Assembly (NCBI GenBank): GCA_026708965.1 | Contig: JAPOTY010000047.1 | Span: 55,021 to 119,020 of the forward strand | Source: Gammaproteobacteria bacterium | GTDB lineage: Bacteria > Pseudomonadota > Gammaproteobacteria > Steroidobacterales > Foliamicaceae | DNA: 64,000 nt | Direction of reading: 5' to 3' | In this document: positions 26,499-33,933 of the stretch, piece after piece | Layout: every line of letters starts with the position of its first letter | How positions within the stretch are numbered: position 1 is the stretch's first letter | Notes under the pieces: generated by a model | The model's input: the letters and a program-made list of their open reading frames with translations, nothing else | Told to the model about the DNA's origin: nothing | Database searches by the model: none | Translations under genes and position numbers: made by a program

Positions 26499-27461
26499 AT
26501 GTCTATGGAATCTTTCCTTGACTTCGAGCAGCCCATCGCGGAGCTGGAGAGCAAGATCGAGCAACTGCGGTTTCTCGATAATGACTCGGGCGTGGATGTG
26601 GCTGCGGAAATCCAGCGGCTTGAGCGCAGCCGCCGCTCGCTCACGCGCAGAATCTACCGGAAGCTTTCGCCTTGGCAGACCGCGCAGGTGGCCCGCCACC
26701 CCAAGCGCCCCTACTCGCTGGACTATATCGCCAGCCTGAGCGCCGACTTCCAGGAACTGCACGGCGATCGAATATACGCCGACGACTTCGCCATAGTGGG
26801 TGGGCCCGGCAGGATCGACGGAACCCCGGTCATGTTTATCGGCCACCAGAAAGGACGCGACACCGCGACCCGGGTGCGACGAAATTACGGCATGGCCCGC
26901 CCGGAGGGCTACCGCAAAGCCCAGCGGCTGATGAGGCTTGCGGAGAAGTTCGGCCTGCCGGTGGTGACGCTGATCGACACGCCTGGCGCTTACCCCGGAA
27001 TCGGCGCGGAGGAACGCGGCCAGAGCGAAGCCATCGCTTCGAGCCTGAACTGCATGGTGGGCCTCAAGACGCCCATCATCAGCGCCATCATCGGCGAGGG
27101 CGGCTCGGGCGGCGCGCTCGCCATCGGCATTGCCGATGTGGTGGTCATGCTTGAGTACAGCATCTACTCGGTGATTTCACCGGAAGGCTGCGCCAGCATC
27201 CTATGGAAGAGCGCCGAGCACGCTGCCGAGGCGGCCGATGCCATGGGCGTGACCGCCAGCCGCCTGCTCAAATTCAAGCTGGTTGACGAAGTGCTTGACG
27301 AGCCTCTGGGCGGCGCCCACCGTAATCCCGACGAGGTCGTGGAAAGTCTCAAAAAGGCGATCAACAAACACTTGGCGCATCTCACCCGCCTCGATATTCC
27401 GCAACTGCTCGAACGCCGCCAGCAACGCTTGCTGAATTACGGCGTTTTCCGCGAAGCTTGA
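26499..27461 (+). CDS. accA: Acetyl-CoA carboxylase carboxyltransferase subunit alpha
   Basis: With AccD, it transfers the carboxyl group from biotin to acetyl-CoA, committing carbon to fatty acid synthesis. The 320 residues begin [20 protein letters not shown], the usual N-terminus. The carboxyltransferase core includes [40 protein letters not shown] and the oxyanion-hole region [19 protein letters not shown] hexamer lies just after the dnaE stop, so a separate promoter is possible. Base composition drops sharply right after the stop codon, where the foreign island begins. Confidence 0.98.
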
Positions 27462-27472
27462 CACACTCAGAC

Positions 27473-28657
27473 ATGCAACAGGGTGATACTCTGCCTCCGC
27501 CACCGAAGTATCGGCTGCCACCTGAACGATCAGCTTTCCAATCGGTGTGGATATGGACCGCCAAAATCCTTATCTTTATTGGATCGCTTGTTTTTGCGAT
27601 CACTTGCGTCCAACTGATTACCGGGTTTCCTGATGCTTACGGATGCATTTGCTTTGCGTATATTGCGCTTATCCTAGTTCTGGTGGGCATTGTGGTTGAA
27701 AATTTGTTTTGCTACAGGGAGCGGGTGTTCAAAAAACGGGTCGAGGATCGGAGTCAGGTCCAATGGCTGCTTCAGGAAGCGGAGTCCTTCATATGCCATA
27801 TTGAGAAAGGGAATCGTTCTTCAGGGAAGATGCGGAATCCAAATAGGCTAAAGAAAGAATTGGAAAGACTTAAATGTTTGGGGCCACAATGCTGGACGGA
27901 ATATCAAATACTCCCCCTGGATTGCCTGCTGGCCGATTTCTTTCCGCTAGCTGACTTGAAGGCTCGGGCGCTTTCTGGGCTAGCGGAGCTAAGGGAGTAT
28001 GCAGTCGGCGCCGCCTTTTCTTATGATGTAAATCTCTACTACGAGTGGGAAAAAAGAATTAACTCGATCATTGAGAGAATAGAAGATTACGAGATGCCAG
28101 CAGATGATTCTGGGAACGCTAATTCACCTGTAGAAAGTGAAGTTGGCGAACTTAGAGCTAACTTGCGGTCCCTTCGCGAGCATATTGCAGACTATCAGTT
28201 TAACTGGGCAAGGGGATCAACAATTGTCTCAAGCATACGTGTGTGTGGTTCGGTCGGTGTCGTGGTCTTTCTACTCTTGGGGCTTTTGCCTGTTTTGTCT
28301 AACTTCTCGGATATGCAATCTTCCACTTTGGGCATCTTGGACTGGGGATTTCTTGGGGCAGCGGGGGCAATGGCAGGCATTTTGCTAGGCCTTCGTAATT
28401 CCGACGAAGTTGAGGTTGGCAATACTGAGGGAGAAAAGGAACTTTGGCGGGCCGTACTAGGAATTCCGCTAGGACTGCTTTCTGGCATCTTGGCGTATGC
28501 GGCCCTCAAGGGCGGAATCATCAAGTCTGGCGCGGTAGTCCCAGAACTAGACGATCCATCGGCCTCAGATCTTGCTCTTTCAATCGTGTGGGCTGTTGTC
28601 TCTGGGTTAGGGCTTGAGAGGATTTTTGAGCGGGTCAGAGGCGCCGCTGATCTTTAG
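27473..28657 (+). CDS. Polytopic membrane protein of unknown function
   Basis: Not recognised as a named family. From the ATG at 27473 (394 residues; a TTG five codons earlier overlaps the accA stop) there are two N-terminal membrane segments (AKILIFIGSLVFAITCVQLI and CICFAYIALILVLVGIVV), a soluble charged region of about 190 residues with helical, partly coiled-coil character, and four C-terminal hydrophobic segments ending near WAVVSGLGLERIFERV. The layout (cytosolic domain held between membrane segments) resembles membrane effectors or sensors in defence loci, but this is inference. It opens the AT-rich island, and the SpeD-like gene follows after 14 bases. Confidence 0.75.
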   Translation: MQQGDTLPPPPKYRLPPERSAFQSVWIWTAKILIFIGSLVFAITCVQLITGFPDAYGCICFAYIALILVLVGIVVENLFCYRERVFKKRVEDRSQVQWLLQEAESFICHIEKGNRSSGKMRNPNRLKKELERLKCLGPQCWTEYQILPLDCLLADFFPLADLKARALSGLAELREYAVGAAFSYDVNLYYEWEKRINSIIERIEDYEMPADDSGNANSPVESEVGELRANLRSLREHIADYQFNWARGSTIVSSIRVCGSVGVVVFLLLGLLPVLSNFSDMQSSTLGILDWGFLGAAGAMAGILLGLRNSDEVEVGNTEGEKELWRAVLGIPLGLLSGILAYAALKGGIIKSGAVVPELDDPSASDLALSIVWAVVSGLGLERIFERVRGAADL

Positions 28658-28671
28658 ATGGGGCCGTTCGA

Positions 28672-29124
28672 ATGACAGTCTCGATTGGTTTAGGCAGTGA
28701 GGGCCGGTCGTCACATATTCATAGTAGAGTCTATGGCTTTGAATTATTACTTGACCTGCAAGGGTGTGATTCCGAACTTTTCAATCGACCTTATATCGAT
28801 CAGTACTTCACAGATCTTTGCAAATTAATTGATATGGAGAAGTGCGATGTTCACTTTTGGGATGATGTAGGTGTTCCTGTCGATGAAAGGCAGACTTTGC
28901 CTCATGCGAAAGGAACGTCAGCCGTGTGCTTCATACTTACAAGCAGTATCGTTATTCATACGCTTGATCTACTAGAGGCGGTCTTCGTAAATATCTTTTC
29001 ATGCAAGTCTTTTGATCCAAAAGTAGCGGAGAAATTTACAAGGGAGCGATTTGCCGCAGATTTCAGCAGCATGAGGTTTGTTGAGCGCAGGTTGTTAAGT
29101 CAACATTCGAGGGATACATCGTGA
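28672..29124 (+). CDS. S-adenosylmethionine decarboxylase (SpeD) family protein
   Basis: The 150-residue protein aligns by eye with bacterial SpeD proenzymes. GFELLLDLQGCDSELF matches the family's N-terminal strand and GC motif, and GTSAVCFILTSSIVIHT matches the processing-site segment (GVSGV..ESHLAIHT). Ser91, His96 and Cys111 keep the spacing of the catalytic Ser63, His68 and Cys83 of the Thermotoga enzyme; Glu62 and His64 are replaced by Thr and Ser. Such proteins self-cleave to form a pyruvoyl cofactor and decarboxylate AdoMet, and some homologues act on ornithine or arginine. The changed residues next to the cleavage site leave activity and substrate open. The stop overlaps the next gene's GTG, so the two are translationally coupled. 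Confidence 0.75.
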   Translation: MTVSIGLGSEGRSSHIHSRVYGFELLLDLQGCDSELFNRPYIDQYFTDLCKLIDMEKCDVHFWDDVGVPVDERQTLPHAKGTSAVCFILTSSIVIHTLDLLEAVFVNIFSCKSFDPKVAEKFTRERFAADFSSMRFVERRLLSQHSRDTS

Positions 29125-30497
29125 AAGTAAAGGAATTGGAGCTTCATCTTCCCGTGGATCTTGGGAAGCAGAATGCTTTAGCTCAAATAAGAGAAGCTCT
29201 TATGTTTCGCTTGCCGCAGGACATTAGGCCGCTCAAATTCGCTGTAACGAATTCAAATGGCTCGCGAGTCAGATGTGTGCTGAGTGGTTTGGAGGGCGAT
29301 ACAAACACAGTTCAGGAGCAATCGATATTCGACGTGAGATTGCGCCATTACGAACGTACAAGTCAATTCAACGTGGTGTTAGTTGTGCCTACCGGGATAG
29401 GTGCAGAGATTGGGGGACATGCAGGCGATGCTACTCCTGTCGCGAGACTGGTCTCGCAAGCATGCGACAACCTTGTTCTGCACCCAAACGTAGTAAATGC
29501 CTCCGACATCAACGAAATACCGTCAAATGCGATATATGTTGAGGGTAGTGTCTTGACTCGATTATTGATGGGAACGATTGGCCTTGCCCCTGTTCGTTCC
29601 AATCGGGTATTGCTGGCAGTGTCTGAGCACGAGGACAAATTGTTTGTGAACGCAGCTATCAATGCAGTAGGGGCAGCTAGGGCTTCTTTTGGTATAAATT
29701 GCCCCTATGTCCTGAAACTCTCGGATCCATTGGTAATGAAAGTACGCTTTACGGATGCTGGAACGGCGGCAGGTGAGATCGGCGGATTAAGAGAATTGTT
29801 TGCTACATTAGAAGAAAATCGAGCGGATTACGATGCTTTGGCAATTGCCTCAGTGATTTCTGTGCCCCCAGAATTCCATGAACATTACTTCCGATCGGAG
29901 GGAAGTATGGTAAATCCATGGGGGGGGGTTGAAGCAATGCTAACGCATGCGATATCAAACAAATTGAACGTGCCTTCTGCACACTCGCCAATGTTGGAGA
30001 CTCGCGAAATAGCCAATCAGGACTACGGGATAGTAGATGTGAGAATGGCAGCTGAGGCCGTATCACTGACCTTTCTTCACAGTGTTTTAAAAGGACTTCA
30101 CACAAGTCCCAGAATTGTGACGGATTCTTCACAGCTTGTTGCGCCTGGAGTGATTTCTGCCACCGATATTTCGTGTTTGGTCATACCAGATGGGTGCTTG
30201 GGCTTGCCCACTTTGGCAGCGCTCGAGCAGGGGATTGCTGTTATTGCGGTCCGAGAAAACAAGAACTTCATGCGCAACGATTTGACTTCACTTCCTTGGG
30301 GGGCTGGCCAGCTTCATATAGTCGAGAATTATTGGGAAGCGGTCGGTGTTCTTTGCGCCTTAAGGGGTGGAGTAACGCCAGATTCTGCAAGACGCCCTAT
30401 CCGCCCCACCATGGAATTAAGCCAACAACATTTAGGTGTTCCGCCTAAATTTGGATCTTTTGAGAAATCCAAACGGGCCAGCGGAAAAGCTCAATAG
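29121..30497 (+). CDS. DUF3326 family protein
   Basis: 458 residues, with the DUF3326 hallmark segments VVPTGIGAEIGGHAGDATPV, DNLVLHPNVVNASDINEIP and a C-terminal region with TDISCLVIPDGCLGLPTLAALE. The family occurs in cyanobacteria, plants and scattered bacteria; I know of no established function. The GTG start overlaps the SpeD-like gene by 4 bases. The first 90 or so residues are a separate N-terminal domain. A run of nine G in the middle (codons for PWGGV) would shift the frame if it changed length. The end overlaps the methyltransferase ORF. Confidence 0.8.
   Translation: MKVKELELHLPVDLGKQNALAQIREALMFRLPQDIRPLKFAVTNSNGSRVRCVLSGLEGDTNTVQEQSIFDVRLRHYERTSQFNVVLVVPTGIGAEIGGHAGDATPVARLVSQACDNLVLHPNVVNASDINEIPSNAIYVEGSVLTRLLMGTIGLAPVRSNRVLLAVSEHEDKLFVNAAINAVGAARASFGINCPYVLKLSDPLVMKVRFTDAGTAAGEIGGLRELFATLEENRADYDALAIASVISVPPEFHEHYFRSEGSMVNPWGGVEAMLTHAISNKLNVPSAHSPMLETREIANQDYGIVDVRMAAEAVSLTFLHSVLKGLHTSPRIVTDSSQLVAPGVISATDISCLVIPDGCLGLPTLAALEQGIAVIAVRENKNFMRNDLTSLPWGAGQLHIVENYWEAVGVLCALRGGVTPDSARRPIRPTMELSQQHLGVPPKFGSFEKSKRASGKAQ
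29930..29938 (+). repeat. Nine-G homopolymer inside the DUF3326 gene
   Basis: Nine consecutive G encode part of Pro-Trp-Gly-Gly-Val in an otherwise AT-rich gene. A one-base gain or loss would truncate the protein after about 270 residues. It resembles other long G/C runs in the accessory parts of this window. Confidence 0.85.
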
Positions 30498-31761
30498 TCC
30501 TTGCCATTACCTTGGGAATAAGCAGCTAATCGAGGATAAAGGTTTGAGTCGTCCTGAAGTGCGAGATTCTTCGCTCAACAAGAGCACTGTATATGAGCGC
30601 CGCCATTACCGAGTGCGAAATGTTACCAGCGCGAAGAAAGTGTGTCGAAATTATCTTAGGACCATTGACTTGGATAAGGTTGTGGGGTTTGGTTTGCCGG
30701 AGGTCGACGATCGTTACCACATATGGAGAGTACCTCTGAAAGCAAATGATGGGAGAAAAGTCGGAGAAATTGTGGTTGACGCATTCACAACATTTGTGGA
30801 CAACAATAGAACTACGGATAAGCATGTGCTTGAGGCACGCTTGCTTGGGCGCTCCGTGCGGAAGGCCAAAGAATCCAGAAAGAATAACTTGCCAAGAGTC
30901 TCACACCTGCGGAATACGGTTGGCCTAGGCGACAGCGAGGACTTACTGGCGGAGACACCCGCAGAATCGGTCGATCTCATTTTTACTTCTCCGCCCTATT
31001 ACAACGCTCGTCCAGAGTACGCAGAGTACATTCAATATGAGGAGTATTTGCTGAAGATGAAGAAAGTCATTCATCAATGCCACAGAGTATTGAATGAGGG
31101 GCGTTTTTTTGTGATCAATGTGTCTCCGGTACTTATTCGGAGAGCAAGTCGCAGCGAAGCATCCAAGAGAATCGCAGTTCCTTATGACTTTCATCAAATC
31201 TTTGTGGAAGAGGGATTTCAGTTTATTGATGACATTATCTGGATTAAGCCTGATGGAGCAGGGTGGGCTACAGGACGAGGGCGGCGCTTCGCAGCTGACA
31301 GACATCCTCTGCAATATAAGGCAGTGCCTGTAACGGAGTACGTTCTTGTGTATCGGAAGGCGACAGACAAGCTGATTGACTGGAACATTAGAAAGCACCC
31401 TAACCAAGAACTTGTGGCCAAATCGAAAATTAGCGATAGCTACGAGAGAACAAACGTCTGGAAAATTCATCCGGCGCATAGCAAGAAGCATCCTGCGGTT
31501 TTTCCAATAGAGTTGGCAGATAAGGTGATTCGCTACTACTCCTTTGAGCAGGATGTTGTTCTAGACCCGTTTGCTGGGATCGGGACGGTTGGCGAAGCGG
31601 CATCAAAGGCCAATCGGCGCTTTGTGTTGTATGAGAATAACGAGGATTACGTTACGGAAATCAAGTCGAATATTGAGAGTTGGCTACGACACAATGTTGG
31701 CGATGTGCATTGGGTGAATTGCGCTCCCTTGTCAGCCACAGAGAACTGGCTTGGATTGTGA
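30436..31761 (+). CDS. DNA methyltransferase, TSPPY type (type II R-M-like)
   Basis: AdoMet-dependent amino-methyltransferase. The catalytic motif IV TSPPYYNARPEY comes first (near residue 185) and the AdoMet-binding motif I, DPFAGIGTVGEA, near residue 378, which is the beta-class order; TSPPY is often seen in N4-cytosine enzymes, but N6-adenine cannot be excluded. About 180 N-terminal residues form a domain I do not recognise. The start is uncertain: the GTG used overlaps DUF3326, while a TTG at 30544 has a good GAGGA site upstream. The gene after it looks like the matching endonuclease. Confidence 0.87.
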   Translation: MFRLNLDLLRNPNGPAEKLNSPCHYLGNKQLIEDKGLSRPEVRDSSLNKSTVYERRHYRVRNVTSAKKVCRNYLRTIDLDKVVGFGLPEVDDRYHIWRVPLKANDGRKVGEIVVDAFTTFVDNNRTTDKHVLEARLLGRSVRKAKESRKNNLPRVSHLRNTVGLGDSEDLLAETPAESVDLIFTSPPYYNARPEYAEYIQYEEYLLKMKKVIHQCHRVLNEGRFFVINVSPVLIRRASRSEASKRIAVPYDFHQIFVEEGFQFIDDIIWIKPDGAGWATGRGRRFAADRHPLQYKAVPVTEYVLVYRKATDKLIDWNIRKHPNQELVAKSKISDSYERTNVWKIHPAHSKKHPAVFPIELADKVIRYYSFEQDVVLDPFAGIGTVGEAASKANRRFVLYENNEDYVTEIKSNIESWLRHNVGDVHWVNCAPLSATENWLGL

Positions 31762-31786
31762 GGCGCTTCCGCCTCCGCACATCAGG

Positions 31787-32896
31787 ATGAGTAATGAAAT
31801 GAATTACCAAGACCTTTGCGACAAGGCGCTTAGCCATTGGTCTCGGGTTGCAGAACCCCGCGCCGACTACGGTGGTGCGGAATTACTGGACAGAATCGGT
31901 GAAGAGGTTGTCCGGGAGGCTGTTATCTCGGTATTGTCAGGTGGTAACGTTAGGTCACTGACGGAGAATTTGACAAGACAGCGACTGACGCTGGCCAATG
32001 CTGCGCTTTTCGTATCCTTTCTTCAGACTCACTCTGAAATCAGTGACGCAAAGGGCAGATTCTTACATGTTGTGCGAGCAGGATTGAAGACTGCGAAAAC
32101 GCCTGAACAGAGGCAGTTTCTACAGTGGTGCGTGGGACTAACGCAAAAGGGAATACAAAATATTCTCCGAAGCGACAACACACTTGCTTTGGACGAATAT
32201 CTCGAAAATCTTGAGAATTCGCTCGCGCAAGCAGCCAAGCAGTGCGAGATGTCGCACGGCGAAGTACGTGGTGTTTTTGAGTTGGGTGCCAAGAGCCACG
32301 CAATTGACTGGCCCTTCCTGCTTCATTTGTTCGTCGCTATTGGGTCTCAGACGCTCACTATTCGAGGTTCGGAGAAATCGAAATACGGAAAGCTATTTGA
32401 AAAGCTGATACTTGGATCCGCCCTGACTCTTTTGGGTTTCAAGAGGGTGGGTCAAAAAGATATCACCGTAACCTCGAATGCGTTTTGGTTATCGTCAAGG
32501 GGGCAAAAGCGTGAAAGCGATGCCACGGTATTGTATCGTCCAGGTGTTGGTGTGAAGTTTGACATTGGATTCATCGGCCCCGGAAATACTGAGATTTCCT
32601 TGGACAAGGTATCGCGGTTCGAGAAGCAAATTGAACATGGGGAAGAGAGATATTCGATGTCTACTATAGTCTTGGTGGACAGGATAGGAGAAGGTAGTCG
32701 CATCGACGAAGCCGCCCAAAGCATTGGTGGCACGATTGTGCAAATGAGCATGACGCACTGGGTGCGAGAGGTGGCACTCGTACTGGGTGAGAAGATCCGG
32801 TTTAGGCATCCGATTTGCAACATGAGCGGCGACCAGAGTTTGCGGTTCATAAGTCAGGAGATGCGAAAAGTTGATCTGAAAGGGATCATTGATTGA
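31787..32896 (+). CDS. Probable type II restriction endonuclease
   Basis: 369 residues from the ATG at 31787 (another ATG lies four codons later; the upstream TTG start overlaps the methyltransferase). The N-terminal half is helical. The C-terminal half contains a candidate PD-(D/E)XK core, FDIGFIGPGNTEISLDKV, though the usual E-x-K spacing is not perfect. The call rests mainly on position directly after the methyltransferase, same strand and similar base composition. It may belong to the CfrBI-like family, but I could not confirm this from memory. Confidence 0.6.
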   Translation: MSNEMNYQDLCDKALSHWSRVAEPRADYGGAELLDRIGEEVVREAVISVLSGGNVRSLTENLTRQRLTLANAALFVSFLQTHSEISDAKGRFLHVVRAGLKTAKTPEQRQFLQWCVGLTQKGIQNILRSDNTLALDEYLENLENSLAQAAKQCEMSHGEVRGVFELGAKSHAIDWPFLLHLFVAIGSQTLTIRGSEKSKYGKLFEKLILGSALTLLGFKRVGQKDITVTSNAFWLSSRGQKRESDATVLYRPGVGVKFDIGFIGPGNTEISLDKVSRFEKQIEHGEERYSMSTIVLVDRIGEGSRIDEAAQSIGGTIVQMSMTHWVREVALVLGEKIRFRHPICNMSGDQSLRFISQEMRKVDLKGIID

Positions 32897-32992
32897 TCGA
32901 GTTCATGCTCTACATGGGGCGACCTTACGAGCTGAGATTTGCATACCATGCAAGCAAACCCTTGCAACGGTTGGTTGATGAGGGATTTTTTT

Positions 32993-33003
32993 GGGGGGGG
33001 GGG
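32993..33003 (+). repeat. T7-G11 homopolymer upstream of the DUF1838 gene
   Basis: Seven T run directly into eleven G, about 30 bases before the start of the DUF1838 gene and at the right edge of the AT-rich island. It is outside any supported coding region, so length change would alter spacing in the promoter or leader rather than a reading frame. The track ORF starting at 32893 reads through it but is not supported. Confidence 0.85.
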
Positions 33004-33033
33004 CACAAAGCATATGGTTGCTTGGAGGAATGC

Positions 33034-33933
33034 ATGAGTGGACCTATTGATCGCCGCATGGTTTTGGCCGGCGCGCTTGGCGCGCCGCTTCTGGCCGGAT
33101 TGCCCGCTGGCGCGCAAGCTGGCGAGTATTCGGGGCTTACCGATCTGGATTTGAGCGACGATGAAATGCTGCGCTATTTCGTAAAACTGCGCGGCAGCCT
33201 GGATGATCGCGTCACCATGGGCTGGGTGGACGCAGTCAACTATGCGTTCATCGATGGCGTGACTTATCCGATGTACCGGCTTTTGTCCACCACTATCCGC
33301 CAGACGCGCAAGGTCGATGACAGCGTCTACAACAGCGTCTCGTTGGAAGTCGCCATGTACATGGATATCGAAACGGGAAAGCTGCTGGACCAGCTGGCCA
33401 TGCCGGTGACGGGCAACATGGTGGATGTGCCCTTGTACCGCGCCGGCCCCTCGCATATGGATCTGGTCGCGCGCGCCGAGGAGACCAGCGAGTTCACTAT
33501 GGGCGAGGAAACGGTCGATGGCGAATCGTTCTTTGCCAAGGGGCAGGTCGATAGCCAGCGTTTCCTCAGCCTGCCGCAACGGCGCGGCGACGACTTCTAT
33601 ATTCGCCAGGATATCAGCGCGCGGGTATTCCCGCCCGGCGGGTCGCGCCCCAGCTTCTTCTACCGCGAGTGGACCATCAACCAGGGCAGTTGGGCCGCGC
33701 TCGCCAATCCGTCAACCGTGTCGGCGCCGGTGGACGTGGCCTATATCGCCAACACGGCGTTCCGGCCTTGGATGCAAATGGGCGATACGCCCGGCCATAC
33801 GGTGCAGAACGGGCGGGGCGGCAAGGCGGAAAACCCCGAGGGCTTGCCGGTTGAGTTGCTCCGCTTGGTAAAGCTCCACCACCCGGACCTGATCGAGGAT
33901 CCCGAAGGCGTCCTGGCCGGAGAATCCGCATAG
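33034..33933 (+). CDS. DUF1838 family protein with Tat-type signal peptide
   Basis: The start at 33034 is chosen from a GGAGGA site and a sensible export signal: MSGPIDRRMVLAGALGAPLL, with a twin-arginine pair followed by a hydrophobic stretch and an A-x-A cleavage site (AGAQA). The mature part (about 270 residues) matches the DUF1838 family, recognised from segments such as DLDLSDDEMLRYFVKLRGSL and VAYIANTAFRPWMQMGDTPG. The family has no established function. High GC content matches the chromosome, so it belongs to the host side of the island border. Confidence 0.85.
   Translation: MSGPIDRRMVLAGALGAPLLAGLPAGAQAGEYSGLTDLDLSDDEMLRYFVKLRGSLDDRVTMGWVDAVNYAFIDGVTYPMYRLLSTTIRQTRKVDDSVYNSVSLEVAMYMDIETGKLLDQLAMPVTGNMVDVPLYRAGPSHMDLVARAEETSEFTMGEETVDGESFFAKGQVDSQRFLSLPQRRGDDFYIRQDISARVFPPGGSRPSFFYREWTINQGSWAALANPSTVSAPVDVAYIANTAFRPWMQMGDTPGHTVQNGRGGKAENPEGLPVELLRLVKLHHPDLIEDPEGVLAGESA

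Follow-up and report, generated by a model that had tools for sequence, protein, structure and literature searches.

Pyruvoyl-dependent ornithine and arginine decarboxylases that derive from the AdoMet decarboxylase (AdoMetDC) SpeD are already known (SpeDC/SpeDA; PMC10407285, PMC9992855), and the available text of the first report gives SpeDC the speD-speD2-speE arrangement that is also found in Leptospira. The SpeD of phiN3 is presented in the available text of the second report as a bona fide AdoMetDC (PMC9992855). A connection with envelope stress and polyamines has been described for operons that combine a GspS-like (glutathionylspermidine-synthase-like) gene with DUF350, DUF1190, and PspA (PMC11237479). 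In the parts of that paper that were accessible, one operon variant has an AdoMetDC and a polyamine oxidase, DUF3326 is not reported, and a polyamine-independent AdoMetDC of GspS-type operons is cited (Li 2019, cited in PMC11237479). No published report of a SpeD-DUF3326 pair was found. Two papers were found to name DUF3326, one of them in a list of gene clusters, and neither appears to concern its function.

The locus compared with these systems lies in the window, i.e., the whole stretch of 64,000 nucleotides that was analyzed, from a gammaproteobacterial genome. A SpeD-like gene (ATG start, no internal stop) overlaps a DUF3326 gene by 4 bp. Together with a membrane protein gene and a restriction-modification (R-M) system, this pair forms a horizontally inserted, low-GC island (Table 1). 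The island genes have 43–50% GC, compared with 63% for the window. The alignment to the closest congener ends at 27462 and restarts at 33034. In congeners, a DUF1838 gene comes next after the left-flank gene, which we take to be accA; the two coding regions are about 40 bp apart in the closest congener. The island is not present in any congener, including the eight with a highly similar accA. No integrase gene was recognized among the island ORFs, and a search of the island for terminal repeats turned up no long ones. The membrane protein has hydrophobic segments at both termini; it has no Pfam family, and a profile search of the PDB returned nothing credible. The R-M genes provide both the methyltransferase and the endonuclease that a type II system requires (30436–32896); the true methyltransferase start is probably downstream of the DUF3326 stop, and 30436 is the start of the ORF. 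At the same accA|DUF1838 site, another congener, G005, has genes for an HNH nuclease and for a protein with AlbA_2 and HATPase_c_4 domains (L193, 2143–4742), which makes the site an insertion hotspot for defense-like genes.

Table 1. Features of the window locus and its inserted island.
Feature	Position	Strand	Basis or remark
accA, chromosomal gene flanking the island on the left	26499..27461	+	83–88% identity in 8 congeners
Membrane protein, 399 aa from TTG	27458..28657	+	in-frame ATG at 27473
Inserted island, ~5.57 kb	27462..33033	.	empty site in closest congener (L186)
SpeD-like pyruvoyl decarboxylase (predicted), 150 aa	28672..29124	+	PF02675 E 4.7e-15
Trp63 codon, in clade-marking FWDD-type insertion	28858..28860	+	80/80 in clade
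Ser91 codon, predicted processing serine/pyruvoyl residue	28942..28944	+	80/80; 1vr7 alignment
His96 codon (T. maritima H68)	28957..28959	+	80/80 conserved
Cys111 codon (T. maritima C83)	29002..29004	+	80/80 conserved
DUF3326 protein, 458 aa, N-terminal extension ~80–90 residues	29121..30497	+	PF11805 E 6.7e-91
Type II N6/N4 DNA methyltransferase	30436..31761	+	PF01555 E 2e-44; PADLOC MTase_II E 1e-140
CfrBI-like type II restriction endonuclease	31751..32896	+	PF09516 E 2e-17; PADLOC REase_II E 3e-60
DUF1838 gene, right flank	33034..33933	+	start inferred from congeners

The earlier note had described the 150-residue product as a SpeD homolog with an intact catalytic triad and altered residues beside the processing serine, and this description holds. 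The AdoMet_dc match (PF02675) spans residues 25–139 and is above the curated cut-off. A PDB search with the single sequence found nothing, and a search with the SpeD profile recovered AdoMetDC. In a profile alignment to the Thermotoga structures 1vr7/1tlu, Ser91, His96, and Cys111 align with S63, H68, and C83 and keep their intervals of 5 and 15 residues. Judged from the sequences, homology, residue spacing, and neighborhood are well beyond chance. However, the protein scores only 28.1 bits against a cut-off of 75.65 for the NCBIfam AdoMetDC equivalog (TIGR03330), which makes it a relative of AdoMetDC and not an ordinary member. The residue before the serine is Thr in 69 of 80 clade members, compared with Glu in canonical SpeD, and the residue after it is Asn, Ser, Thr, or Asp in all 80, compared with His. 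The arginine decarboxylase of phage HTVC201P and the SpeDC-like Leptospira protein likewise have Thr before the serine. Asp99 occupies the proline position of the HTWPE motif, by our own reading of where the published conserved Pro lies, and phiN3 also lacks this Pro. The Pro is reported as conserved in bona fide AdoMetDC in the accessible part of the JBC paper. Reference SpeD proteins have a gap or a different residue at the position of Trp63. The protein would cleave itself before Ser91 and thereby generate a pyruvoyl group. In two phages, a C-terminal SpeD domain is found on longer ORFs of 617 and 1236 residues (L070, 5467–7317; L158, 6656–10363).

In the phylogenetic tree, the clade of SpeD-like proteins to which the pair belongs joins the second SpeD of the Leptospira speD-speD2-speE operon, apart from the canonical SpeD proteins sampled. 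The bootstrap values are 91 for this joint group and 76 for the pair clade itself, in a tree with this one SpeDC-like reference. The grouping with ornithine-type homologs favors the idea of the earlier note that this is a divergent pyruvoyl-type SpeD with a probable substrate shift. The clade resembles SpeDC/SpeDA, as these are described in the accessible text (PMC10407285, PMC9992855), in that its members have the size of class 1b SpeD, a Ser/His/Cys triad, and a Thr that precedes the serine, and occur in phages; the lack of spermidine synthase in the window genome is a further similarity. Of the four residues diagnostic for ornithine decarboxylase (ODC), the clade also has Gln (in phage members) and, at a second position, Tyr/Phe. 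In contrast to SpeDC, it has no Phe at the diagnostic position that follows the catalytic His, and cellular members have Cys in place of Gln. The extra FWDD segment with its invariant Trp and the fixed DUF3326 partner are further differences from SpeDC/SpeDA; no mention of DUF3326 was found in the accessible text of those papers. At the ODC-diagnostic positions (Gln/Thr/Phe/Tyr, located by means of the second Leptospira SpeD), the window protein has Cys86, Thr90, Thr97, and Phe105 and does not match the set. Across the clade, the corresponding counts are Gln in 66, Thr in 69, Thr at position 97 in 56, and Tyr in 50 of 80 members, and Phe at position 97 is absent from the residues listed for these 80. 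By the four-residue rule, the clade is thus not SpeDC.

An enzyme that still decarboxylates AdoMet, with DUF3326 as a new aminopropyl-transfer or dcAdoMet-using enzyme, is rather unlikely. Membership in the AdoMet_dc family fits this explanation, as does the polyamine-independent AdoMetDC of GspS-type operons. The phiN3 SpeD also has a changed pre-serine residue and is nonetheless a bona fide AdoMetDC according to the available text (PMC9992855); since it lies near the branch of the pair clade, tree position alone does not exclude AdoMet. The replacement of Glu by Thr before the serine, shared with the phage arginine decarboxylase and the Leptospira protein, argues against it. An amino-acid-type substrate, such as ornithine, arginine, or a carboxylated polyamine, would be likelier than AdoMet. 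This new branch, present in dozens of uncultured phages, would then join the known cases of substrate change in SpeD.

The search for the SpeD-DUF3326 combination in other genomes, proposed in the earlier note, indicates a mobile two-gene unit, carried by marine bacteria and by numerous uncultured phages. With the SpeD protein as query, genome contigs yielded 13 relatives (58–69% identical), in MAGs labeled as several phyla. DUF3326 is directly downstream of SpeD in all 13, found via SpeD alone, with the DUF3326 gene truncated by the contig end in some. Scans of genome and viral contigs gave 99 distinct loci, of which 65 have both genes, 27 have SpeD only (reference proteins included), and seven have DUF3326 only; single-gene loci are in the set because either gene was searched for. 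The order is SpeD then DUF3326 on one strand in 64 of the 65 two-gene loci. The intergenic gap has a median of 3 bp (≤25 bp in 55 loci, ≤100 bp in 59), with overlaps in 29. Congruence between the SpeD and DUF3326 trees is modest (r 0.31), and none of 2000 shuffles was as high. Terminase, portal, tape-measure, DNA polymerase, and ribonucleotide reductase genes are found near the pair, and by this gene content the carriers include genuine uncultured phages. None of 72,556 plasmids or 50,697 phage records of isolates contains DUF3326, so no annotated relative was usable. Among cellular genomes, its distribution is sporadic and the bacterial hosts are scattered. Neither 147 relatives of the window genome nor 369 genomes of its class included another carrier of DUF3326. 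Samples around three other carriers likewise show it to be rare, with 9/385 genomes in the class of an Alphaproteobacteria carrier, 1/388 over the cut-off for the phylum of one from Verrucomicrobia, and 3/52 for the phylum of one from SAR324. It also occurs in cyanobacteria (control genome).

About a dozen members of the SpeD clade have no DUF3326 within the locus DNA examined, and the SpeD-like protein may therefore work alone in some phages. Such lone genes include those of L123, L124, L141, and L147, for which a partner may be dispensable, distant, or supplied by the host.

The constant partner of SpeD is DUF3326 and not an R-M system. As the earlier note had remarked, a DNA methyltransferase is one gene away in the window (DUF3326, then the methyltransferase and the CfrBI-like endonuclease), and this adjacency is the one observation that would suit a SpeD acting as an AdoMet-consuming regulator of the neighboring R-M system. 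No counterpart of the window methyltransferase or endonuclease is present at the 13 first relatives within the locus DNA examined. Moreover, R-M families are not among the recurrent families of 114 neighboring proteins at 21 cellular loci. The regulator hypothesis is thereby largely refuted and very improbable. The earlier note had treated linkage to DUF3326 and R-M genes in other genomes as decisive for its proposal; the linkage to DUF3326 recurred, whereas that to R-M genes, and with it the proposed functional tie to the methyltransferase, did not.

The window genome is 94% complete, and the SpeD-like gene is its sole AdoMet_dc gene, which would be compatible with an ordinary housekeeping speD for spermidine synthesis. 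However, the lack of a spermidine synthase noted earlier for the surroundings of the gene extends to the whole of this genome, and the island is missing from all congeners. A separate, strongly matching canonical AdoMet_dc gene is present in six of 12 other carrier genomes, indicating that the SpeD of the pair is not simply the AdoMet decarboxylase of its genome. With the equivalog score also far under its cut-off, a housekeeping role is hardly credible. No second DUF3326 gene was found in the window genome. A PF01564 match is present in 16 of 21 carriers and is strong in 12, so the absence of spermidine synthase was dropped as a general diagnostic.

The SpeD gene beside DUF3326 can be exchanged for genes of other families, which are separated from DUF3326 by short gaps or overlap it. 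An NspC-like (carboxynorspermidine-decarboxylase-like) PLP decarboxylase replaces SpeD in L211, L213, and L214 (TIGR01047, E 1e-77 to 1e-84), with scores under the equivalog cut-off. The phage locus L034 and the locus L113 have a phosphatidylserine (PS)-decarboxylase-like protein of a pyruvoyl family in this slot (E 3e-26 and 5e-17), and L035, L071, and L074 have an ornithine-cyclodeaminase-like (OCD-like) protein (E 9e-53 for L035). DUF3326 has no recognized partner at four loci (L039, L060, L215, and L216). Three unrelated decarboxylase families and one deaminase family in a single slot suggest that DUF3326 needs an enzyme that acts on the alpha-carbon of an amino-acid-type compound, assuming that the replacements share the pathway; this is our main functional inference. 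However, each of the replacements could supply a substrate of its own. Since NspC-like, PS-decarboxylase-like, and OCD-like enzymes are not known to make dcAdoMet, the exchange also speaks against AdoMet as the substrate. An NspC-like decarboxylase beside a second enzyme gene, seen at three loci, recalls the CASDH/CASDC (carboxyspermidine) pathway; unlike in that pathway, the second gene, DUF3326, has no recognized relation to the saccharopine-dehydrogenase-like CASDH. In one phage with a PS-decarboxylase-like gene beside DUF3326, the 991-residue portal protein has a middle part that matches phosphoheptose isomerase (L034, 9938–12910; phrog_1238).

The partnership with three unrelated kinds of decarboxylase is the first strong clue to the chemistry of DUF3326. 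About 30 positions are invariant across 50 diverse DUF3326 sequences, as expected for an enzyme. A structure model from 50 sequences is alpha/beta and confident (pLDDT 94.7, pTM 0.90), and gave no convincing structural match in the PDB; PDB sequence and profile searches returned nothing credible. In 11 of 11 cellular DUF3326 proteins but in only four of 50 viral ones, the N terminus is extended by about 90 residues or more. Fold matches of two models were weak (lumazine synthase, HAD phosphatase with TM 0.32, and transcarbamylases with TM about 0.2), and no function was inferred from them. DUF3326 also pairs with PLP- and NAD-type enzymes, and for this reason a role in pyruvoyl maturation, like that of PanM/PanZ for PanD, was rejected.

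Among the 114 neighboring proteins at 21 cellular loci, GSP_synth, the glutathionylspermidine-synthase-like family, is the commonest (seven proteins, in seven of the 21 loci), and PspA, DUF2170, DUF350, and DUF1190 occur three times each. The pair is part of a GspS-like operon in L209, L210, and L212, the NspC-like replacement is part of one in L213 and L214, and a GspS-like gene is upstream in L004 and L009; the window locus differs in having none of these genes. A membrane-protein homolog is immediately upstream of the pair in L003, L006, L008, L012, L013, and L015, and the Septu genes PtuA/PtuB are in this position in L007 and L010 (PADLOC, E to 1e-68). On the island, by comparison, no PtuA/PtuB is among the matches listed for its proteins. 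To our knowledge, Septu does not require SpeD or DUF3326.

The cellular neighbor context ranks a module for amine synthesis first, a defense signal second, and an AdoMet substrate third. We lean toward the reading that the SpeD-like gene and DUF3326 are a mobile two-enzyme amine-making module with a varying third component. DUF3326 would be an enzyme of the same short pathway, acting on the amine made or making its carboxylated precursor, and the product would be a modified amine, probably not the usual polyamine spermidine. Cells would use this product with an exchangeable third component, such as the membrane protein of the window, a GspS-like ligase operon with DUF350/DUF1190/PspA, or the Septu ATPase-HNH pair, and phages would carry the core pair without third components.

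Small-molecule signals that switch on effectors are known from CBASS and the type III CRISPR SAM-AMP system. By analogy, the pair may make a signal that switches on an exchangeable effector (the membrane protein or the Septu-type ATPase/HNH nuclease), with phage copies countering or mimicking it; we regard this as a less probable alternative. Points in its favor are the swapping of the upstream component while the pair is kept, the Septu genes directly upstream at two loci, and the R-M system on the window island, at a site occupied by AlbA_2/HATPase and HNH genes in a congener. L003 also encodes a HEC-02A candidate defense protein (115–642; PADLOC, E 3e-54), a few kilobases upstream of its SpeD-DUF3326 pair. 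A defense role, as the earlier note had raised, is possible given the insertion hotspot and the Septu genes. However, the commonest neighbor is not an effector but an operon for a biosynthetic ligase, which the available text of PMC11237479 ties to envelope stress. In addition, phages widely carry the pair without effectors, a sensor component was not recognized, and fewer than half of the 21 cellular loci have defense genes nearby. More speculatively, the amine-making module may be the core of an unrecognized mobile system whose product, a new amine metabolite, would serve as a signal or as a modifier of membranes or nucleic acids. It would be used against and exploited by phages, with cells coupling exchangeable effectors or ligases to it and phages carrying the stripped pair.

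Two further genes lie close to the cellular pairs. A cysteine-rich protein follows DUF3326 at two of the membrane-protein loci (L008, 3096–3557; L012, 7790–8563); it is YkgJ-like by eye, and the L012 copy has no Pfam match. Just downstream of one Septu-SpeD-DUF3326 cluster is a gene for a Tle1-like phospholipase domain protein (L007, 7975–9150; PF09994, E 4e-75).
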